Of a stretch of DNA of 64,000 bases, positions 1-59,717 are shown in pieces. Source of the stretch: an uncultured Pirellulaceae bacterium (GTDB lineage Bacteria > Planctomycetota > Planctomycetia > Pirellulales > Pirellulaceae). The translations under genes were made by a program, and so were the position numbers. The DNA is taken from the NCBI GenBank assembly GCA_937944405.1, contig CALDYR010000027.1, positions 1 through 64,000 of the forward strand. Direction: 5' to 3'. The first letter of the stretch is position 1. Each line of letters opens with the position of its first letter. Below the pieces are notes generated by a model. The model ran no database searches. It saw nothing but the letters and a program-made list of their open reading frames with translations, and was not told the origin of the DNA.

Positions 1-103
1 AAGGGGGCCTTGCGCTCATGAAGTCAACAAATTCAAAATTCGGGCTGCGAAAACGAATCGCGCGGAAATTCTAAAGCAACAACAGCCCCATGAAATATCC
101 GTC

Positions 104-700
104 CTAAGCGTGGTGCATGGTGGCTGATATTTTCCGGCGGAAAGCGAGCAGCGTGTCTTGCGACAACGAGTTGTTCGTCACATCGATCTCTTTAAGAAAA
201 CGGCAGTACTCGAACTTCAGCAGCGTTTTTCGGTTCAGATCGCAATTGGCTACGTTGAGGCTGGTAAGATTATGAATCTGCTGAAGGCTGGCGATCGTTC
301 GCGCCGACACATGTTTCCCGGCTAAATTGATTTGTACATCGCTAAGGAGGTAACGCATGACGCCGGTAAAACCGTCCGGAGTGCTGATATGCCCGCCAAC
401 TTTTGCGACTTGGGCGATCGCAGATTCAGATCGATAACACAGGTAGATGTGCCACAATAAGAAGGTCGCGACGGCTGCCGCAAGGGCCATAAAAACCGGT
501 CGCAGATCGCGCAGACTGAAACCCTGTGACGGTTCGGCGGCGGTTTGGGCGGCCGATAAAGGCGTCTTTGAGTGCGCTGCGTTGCTTATCGTGAGGGTGC
601 CGACGAGCGGTTTGAGCGGTTTGGAAACCAGCGTACTGATTGAGGTCGCGACCAAAATCACGACAATCAGCTGACAGGGAATGGAGAGTAGAAACTTCAT
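104..700 (-). CDS. Small membrane protein with LRR-like C-terminus
   Basis: 198 residues. Two hydrophobic segments are visible (about residues 5-27 and 69-88), joined by a polar stretch rich in Ser, Thr and Ala. After the second segment comes a soluble domain with two leucine-rich-repeat-like units (LTSLNVANCDL and LKEIDVTNNSL, about residues 143-180), resembling the short LRRs common in planctomycete proteins. It is probably anchored in the membrane with the repeat part as a binding surface; no enzymatic motif is seen. It lies 61 bp downstream of aceF on the same strand and could be its last operon member, but the ATG sits inside a perfect 13-bp inverted repeat (698-730) and no Shine-Dalgarno is visible. 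Function unknown. Confidence 0.6.
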   Translation of the reverse strand: MKFLLSIPCQLIVVILVATSISTLVSKPLKPLVGTLTISNAAHSKTPLSAAQTAAEPSQGFSLRDLRPVFMALAAAVATFLLWHIYLCYRSESAIAQVAKVGGHISTPDGFTGVMRYLLSDVQINLAGKHVSARTIASLQQIHNLTSLNVANCDLNRKTLLKFEYCRFLKEIDVTNNSLSQDTLLAFRRKISATMHHA

Positions 701-58922: not shown

Positions 58923-59717
58923 TCATTCCTTACCCGCGATCGCTTTGACCGCCGCGACAACGTCACTCGGTTCGGGGCGTTTGGTATAATCCGCATCGAT
59001 AAACGCATACTGAATGGTTCCCTGCCGGTCGATTATGTAGGTCGCCGCCAGCGGCAGTTCCATATCGTCGTTGCCGTTGAACTCGTTCATCTTCAGCATG
59101 TCTCGATACAGCGGCACAATGCCTTCGTGTAATTGGAACACTAATCCATAATCACGGGCGACTTTGTTGTTGATGTCCTGGAGCGTGGCAAAAGTGCTTT
59201 TGTTTTTTTCAGCAGTTTCTTTTGCCTTTTCCGCAATCTCGGGGCTAAGTACGACCAATTGTGCTCCAGCGCCCTGAATCTCTTTCAGCTTCGCATCGAC
59301 GGCCTGCAACTGCAGGTTGCAGTACGGTCACCAACCGCCACGATACCACATTAACACAATCGGACCCTGCTTCCATAAATCGCTCAACCGCACCGATTGG
59401 CCGTTGAAGTTGGTCATGGTCGCATCGGGCGCGACATCACCGACTTTTTTCGCCGTTTTTTCGACGCCTTCTTCGCGCGCCGCTTCCACTCCTCTTTTCA
59501 TTTTGGCTATCATTTCCGCCGGAAACTTTTTCGCACCCATGGCGGCTGTTTCTTGGAGTAGCTGGGTTAGCGTGGGCGTTTGGTCAGTCATTGTTTTAGA
59601 ACTCGATCCTGATTTTACTTTAGTTTTCGATCCGCGTGAGCTGTCTTGGCCGGTGGTAACCAGCGGGGCCATCAACAGCAGCGCTGCGATGGCCATGATT
59701 GATATTTTGCGTTTCAT
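58923..59717 (-). CDS. Exported peroxiredoxin-like protein, probable selenoprotein (UGA at codon 130)
   Basis: 264 residues if the in-frame UGA at 59328-59330 is read as selenocysteine. Signal peptide (about residues 5-23), a helical spacer, then a thioredoxin-fold peroxiredoxin of the PRX-like2 kind. The strand VLMWYRGGW is followed by the UGA and then PYCNLQLQAVD; relatives have Cys there (GGWCPYC), so the UGA replaces the peroxidatic Cys of a CxxC motif (UxxC here). Downstream the same frame is open to the normal C-terminus (AATYIIDRQGTIQYAFIDADY) with no other lesion. A hairpin directly after the UGA could be a bacterial SECIS. It would reduce peroxides in the periplasm. Alternative: a recent nonsense mutation (TGC to TGA). 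Selenocysteine machinery genes are not in the window. Confidence 0.75.
59303..59330 (-). promoter_or_regulatory. SECIS-like hairpin after the UGA of the peroxiredoxin gene
   Basis: On the minus strand two overlapping stems are possible right after the UGA: CTGCAAC/GTTGCAG (7 bp, loop CTGCA), and CCTGC/GCAGG (5 bp, loop AGTT). The second places a G in the first two loop bases, 16 nt after the UGA, close to the bacterial SECIS rule as I know it. Confidence 0.55.

Follow-up and report, generated by a model that had tools for sequence, protein, structure and literature searches.

An apparently exported peroxiredoxin-like protein of a Pirellulaceae bacterium with a probable selenocysteine in place of a redox cysteine

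Does the in-frame TGA in a gene for a peroxiredoxin (Prx)-like protein of an uncultured Pirellulaceae bacterium encode selenocysteine (Sec)? The gene lies in a stretch of 64,000 nucleotides that was analysed as a whole (contig CALDYR010000027.1; hereafter the window), and a preliminary description had placed Sec at the first Cys of its CxxC motif, a proposal that is now supported by the Cys column of the relatives, the sel genes of the genome and the open frame downstream of the TGA. We consider it very probable that UGA130 inserts Sec in place of the first Cys of CxxC in an exported, Prx-like oxidoreductase of the AhpC/TSA fold. Computation shows the reading frame, a TGA placed in a column of conserved Cys, the full set of Sec genes in the genome and a hairpin that agrees with most terms of the bSECIS model.

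The coordinates given in the preliminary description, 58923-59717, proved exact, and the gene occupies the minus strand (Table 1); the plus strand holds no open frame over the same interval. When TGA is read as U, the codon at position 130 is the sole internal stop, and the conceptual active-site motif becomes MWYRGGW-U-PYCNLQLQ. Standard ORF calling cuts the gene at this codon into 129-aa and 128-aa pieces, so that standard annotation splits the gene in two and the enzyme is missed. The earlier claim of an intact downstream domain was confirmed as well: the frame continues without a further stop and the AhpC/TSA domain extends across the TGA, with PF00578 scoring 99.7 bits in the window protein against a gathering score of 26 (E 1.4e-28). 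From its translated sequence, the protein looks exported. The neighbours on one side are presumably two M16-type peptidase-like genes and those on the other side what we take to be dnaX, ybaB and recR-like genes; this surrounding suggests no functional partner.

Table 1 Features of the Prx-like gene in the window
Feature	Coordinates	Strand	Remarks
Exported-looking Prx-like gene	59717..58923	minus	ATG at 59717, stop TGA 58925-58923; 265 codons, 264 residues including one probable Sec
In-frame TGA, codon 130, probably read as Sec (U of GGWUPYC)	59330-59328	minus	From translation; Cys in 34/34 clade relatives compared
Second Cys of UxxC, codon 133	59319..59321	minus	Matches catalytic Cys of solved Prx by alignment; invariant in 32 aligned sequences
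AhpC/TSA (PF00578) thioredoxin-fold domain	59007..59444	minus	Spans the TGA; residues 92-237
Probable signal peptide, KRK then hydrophobic stretch ISIMAIAALLLMAPLV	59649..59717	minus	Translation judged by eye
bSECIS-like apical hairpin CCUGC-AGUU-GCAGG	59303..59316	minus	Loop begins 16 nt past UGA, G in loop position 2

Alignment with Cys-containing homologs, a check proposed in the preliminary description, put the TGA at the exact Cys column: all of the clade relatives compared have Cys there (TGC or TGT; 34/34), with W before and P-Y-C-N after it, both invariant. The exported-looking WYRGGWCPYCN Cys proteins, found in the same family, order and class, are 48-65% identical to the window protein and share its domain and motif, and differ in having Cys where the window protein would have Sec. 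A recent nonsense mutation at this codon would have left a pseudogene making only the 129-residue N-terminal piece, which we regard as very unlikely. The TGA falls exactly at the redox Cys, the rest of the frame is open with no second internal stop, and the identity to the clade after the TGA (60.5%) is near that before it (62.6%; 34 comparisons); the rates at codon positions 1, 2 and 3 are also similar. The mean distance of the window gene is raised on both sides, to 0.374 before the TGA (other clade rows: average 0.288, maximum 0.359) and to 0.395 after it (average 0.267, maximum 0.368), and divergence on both sides argues against a stop that released only the downstream half. On the side of a pseudogene are the somewhat larger excess after the TGA and the departure of the gene from 14 of 88 conserved columns, compared with seven at most in the eight clade members listed; these two features leave room for relaxed constraint. 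We read the distances as showing a faster-evolving lineage. The combination of Cys-bearing relatives with decay of this copy had been named in advance as evidence against Sec; the relatives do have Cys, but clear decay of the window copy was not found. A separate idea, that residues 138, 140 and 141 are unusual because they are forced by the hairpin, was dropped (p 0.073; two of these columns are also atypical in the Cys gene L029).

The source genome (3.95 Mb in 161 contigs) contains all of the genes looked for in connection with Sec insertion: tRNA-Sec with the anticodon TCA (66 bits), selB (343.5 bits), selA (579.8 bits) and selD (254.4 bits, within a frame of 741 aa), each above its cut-off. 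The search for these genes had been suggested as a check and their absence as a ground for rejecting Sec, a ground that does not hold with the full set present in the genome. The same set speaks against the TGA being read as some other amino acid, through a code change or Trp suppression, a reading for which we found no point in favour and which we regard as exceedingly improbable. TGA is the natural terminator of 5 of the 11 window genes checked, including the Prx-like gene itself, and code reassignment therefore does not account for the internal TGA; the invariant Cys of the clade relatives at this column weighs against any other amino acid. Across the genus, tRNA-Sec was found in 24 of 28 genomes and in all 16 of good quality; the four genomes without it are less than 90% complete. 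A Sec-type paralog is present in G303, yet tRNA-Sec was not found in its 88%-complete assembly. As an observation in its own right, the 741-aa selD frame of the source genome (L018; C29:1788-2708, minus strand) is maybe fused to an NADH-dehydrogenase-like part; Ndh-SelD fusions are described in the available text of PMC2398784.

We also evaluated the RNA that follows the UGA. The bSECIS model, as laid out in the available text of PMC13188914, has a loop of 3-9 nt, a stem of 4-16 bp, a G in loop position 1-2, a spacing of 16-37 nt and an MFE <= -7.5. The window hairpin has a loop of 4, a stem of 5 and a spacing of 16, with a local energy of -6.8 versus the -7.5 of the model, and an enclosing longer fold reaches -12.4. 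In the bSECIS search proposed earlier, spacing, loop, stem and the G in loop position 2 thus agree with the model, and the energy reaches -7.5 only if the longer fold is counted. Comparison of the hairpin with synonymous recodings gave values of 0.024, 0.060 and 0.037, depending on the codon weights and the exact rules. The scan of other loci against their synonymous recodings yielded p<=0.05 in 77 of 134 other Sec loci and in 2 of 50 Cys loci, and so tells the two groups apart; under a first hairpin scoring, nine of 50 Cys loci equalled the window's hairpin. A further 34 Sec loci, two of them from the source genome, 31 from elsewhere in the genus and one from a different genus of the family, include many close relatives and are hence not independent; 29 of these 34 reached p<=0.05, and 29 likewise have a GGUC or GUU loop. 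A plain fold around the TGA, calculated on a stretch that took in bases upstream of the UGA and was therefore ill suited as a test, was not significant (z -0.75), and an Rfam search of the gene region returned no match up to E 5. Taken together, the hairpin is weakly significant and consistent with Sec insertion, and is no proof alone.

For the fold prediction, the window protein was combined with sequences of 31 homologous loci, which are those remaining from 36 loci above 100 bits after five with two or three stops were left out. The predicted structure, which is of good confidence overall (pLDDT 84.2, pTM 0.80) but unsure for residues 1-31, places residue 130 directly ahead of a helix (131-141), and the best-ranked solved structures were BCP/PrxQ, AhpE and ResA. 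In the alignment to Aeropyrum BCP (2cx3), Cys133 lies opposite a Cys, which we take to be the peroxidatic Cys, and residue 130 opposite a Ser. Classical peroxiredoxins carry the motif PxxxT/SxxC around the peroxidatic Cys; the T/SxxC motif is absent from the window protein, where the site reads R-G-G-W-U-P-Y-C and Sec would occupy the T/S position. The designation as a peroxiredoxin in the preliminary description therefore stands with respect to the AhpC/TSA domain, but the missing classical motif and the UxxC site make "Prx-like" the more fitting term. We propose that SelB, acting on the hairpin, would deliver Sec-tRNA at UGA130, and that, after export, Sec130 would be the nucleophile acting on a peroxide or disulfide. 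Cys133 would then resolve Sec130 as a selenenyl-sulfide, and a thioredoxin-type partner would reduce this Sec130-Cys133 bond. The substrate and the reductant are ones that we infer, and we hold the catalytic details proposed for Sec130 and Cys133 with moderate confidence.

How does this protein relate to known selenoproteins? A family of UxxC Prx-like selenoproteins is documented in the available text of PMC1088965 and PMC2398784, its members having been in print since 2005-2008; a Sec-containing Prx-like thiol:disulfide oxidoreductase appears in that of PMC1794560, and the 2026 review PMC13188914, in the corresponding part, lists Prx-like selenoproteins with UxxC. The window protein has the same combination of an AhpC/TSA domain and a (here probable) Sec in the first position of UxxC (UPYC) as the Prx-like thiol:disulfide oxidoreductase and Prx-like 1 selenoproteins, and differs from both in that it looks exported and belongs to a clade that otherwise has Cys. 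The Sec-containing classical peroxiredoxins (TxxU) and BCP/PrxQ have the same fold, whereas the Sec of the window protein would be located at the T/S position of TxxC and not at the position of the peroxidatic Cys. The scores of the window protein against the SelL-related model NF040769 (47.1 bits) and the PrxU model NF040737 (25.4 bits) are far under the respective cut-offs of 120 and 270. We presume that the window protein belongs to cd02970 PRX_like2. This name appears in a table of PMC13188914. Literature searches combining selenocysteine with Pirellulaceae found no paper, and those combining selenoprotein-rich or selenoproteome with Planctomycetota found nothing relevant. A wider search reached PMC4807772, the available text of which reported planctomycete selenoproteins and Sec machinery in 2016, so that the novelty once attached to finding such a protein in a planctomycete is reduced. 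This kind of selenoprotein is already known and widespread, and what is new is this member and its likely independent Sec origin.

The origin of the Sec codon was analysed in a tree of 109 rows (58 Sec, 50 Cys and one other, L041, with Ser), built with an X masking the Sec/Cys column. Matches above E 1e-20 and rows short of residues 100-245 were left out, as were the loci L165-L181, the window duplicates L166 and L232, and L205, which repeats the place of L245. Sec rows from outside the family came largely from the TGA-motif search, and because they were picked by motif, the frequency of Sec in the clade is readable only from the codon-blind homolog searches. With the codon disregarded, homologs at E <= 1e-30 were found in 24 of 198 class genomes and in 55 of 241 family genomes, and those at E <= 1e-45 in 31 of 397 class genomes, these samples overlapping one another. 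Among the best 46 family places (E <= 7.7e-69), a TGA lies inside only at the window's own and a TAG in two. A TGA inside the G027 match was rejected as a Sec candidate; it is not at the Cys column, and the alignment to residue 261 has WCPYC without a stop. A plasmid search gave 69 records, all of them homologs of less than 60% identity.

In the tree, seven changes between the Sec and Cys labels are needed, five of which are forced by well-supported branches. The window gene is the sole Sec row of a 35-row clade (support 100/97), the other 34 rows being Cys; the next five rows that join this clade are also Cys, and the clade beyond has a single Sec row, L091, besides four with Cys. The most parsimonious history has a single Cys-to-Sec gain on the window gene's own branch, in a tree whose bootstrap is not fully settled and in which the base of the 35-row clade lacks a clear branching order. 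The Phycisphaerae record L068 groups with the same-phylum row L234, in keeping with a planctomycete source of the window. A Sec codon confined to 1 of 35 clade rows, to 1 of the best 46 family places and to one assembled genome would also be expected from a sequencing or assembly error, with TGC or TGT as the true codon and an ordinary Cys-type exported Prx-like protein as the product; a one-base change suffices for this, and the assembly is in 161 contigs. Such an error would have had to hit, by coincidence, the first Cys of CxxC, the usual place of Sec, in a genome that uses Sec, and the TGA so created would also have to be trailed by a hairpin fitting the bSECIS spacing and G rule; we regard an error as quite unlikely. 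From the tree, an independent Cys-to-Sec gain on the lineage of the window gene appears likely, within an otherwise Cys-bearing clade that offers near relatives with Cys. If true, it would provide a natural case of Sec gain that can be compared with these relatives.

Other genes of the genome and the genus also carry such codons. In the source genome, 3 of 17 PF00578 matches contain an in-frame TGA, the window gene included, and in the other two the TGA is the first Cys of CxxC. One of these two (L165; C60:3050-3697, minus strand) is a second exported-looking AhpC/TSA gene with the motif FRSANWUPFC; genes of its type match in 7 of 28 genomes of the genus, with one TGA in seven of nine places, and the TGA is at the first-Cys column in all four loci read. 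The other (L171; C14:42351-42893, plus strand) belongs with L250-L273 to a TlpA/ResA-like family in which the TGA is the first Cys of CxxC (WSPTUPPC, WGDWUPPC). This family matches in 21 of the 28 genomes, in up to seven places per genome, with one TGA in 68 of 80 places; in the loci read, the TGA is at the first Cys in 24/24, each followed by a GGUC-loop hairpin with a spacing of 31. The genus may thus be selenoprotein-rich, with many TGA-bearing TlpA-like UxxC redox genes, and is perhaps worth a study of its own. We think that the window gene probably represents a recent, independent Cys-to-Sec replacement in one lineage of an exported Prx-like clade, within a genus unusually rich in TlpA-like and Prx-like UxxC selenoproteins. 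A genus with so many of these genes is useful for asking why exported redox enzymes gain selenium.

The preliminary description had regarded UxxC peroxiredoxins as known mainly from metagenomes and deltaproteobacteria, a view that gave way to a motif found in many phyla, in 32 of 392 genomes of a phylum sample and in paralogs within the genus. A TGA-specific motif pattern, applied to 84,980 species genomes, matched at least 119 stretches. Of the 119 matches listed, 111 keep the frame past the TGA open over 105 codons or more before a stop, and the remaining eight show no stop before the stretch ends. On the upstream side, 112 have 32 or more open codons, and in seven the open frame runs as far as the stretch does. 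Similarity to the window protein at E <= 1e-8 was found for 81 of the 119. When the listed matches are taken with 30 phylum-sample loci, 101 of 149 match the window protein, the window itself counted, and the non-matching stretches among those listed may belong to more distant families. The lineages among the matches listed include Acidobacteriota, Poribacteria, Myxococcota, Thermodesulfobacteriota, Pseudomonadota, Chloroflexota and Planctomycetota, and the reversed-pattern control of the phylum sample was 0 in every row listed. Paralogs with a TGA at the same column occur in five further genus genomes (G317, G311, G313, G303 and G295) and in G260, from another genus of the family; the paralogs in G316 and G314, within the genus, have Cys at this column. 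The Sec paralogs of the five genus genomes are like the window gene in the alignment column of the TGA, but are only 30-33% identical to the window protein and lie elsewhere in the tree. The G260 locus (L238, on C6) has UQYC in place of UPYC (RGFW-TGA-QYCN), and in the tree its sister is a pair of Cys rows from the genus. A frame with FYRSAAW-TGA-PFC (L037, positions 15-437, minus strand) lies near a Cys-type homolog in a different genome of the class.
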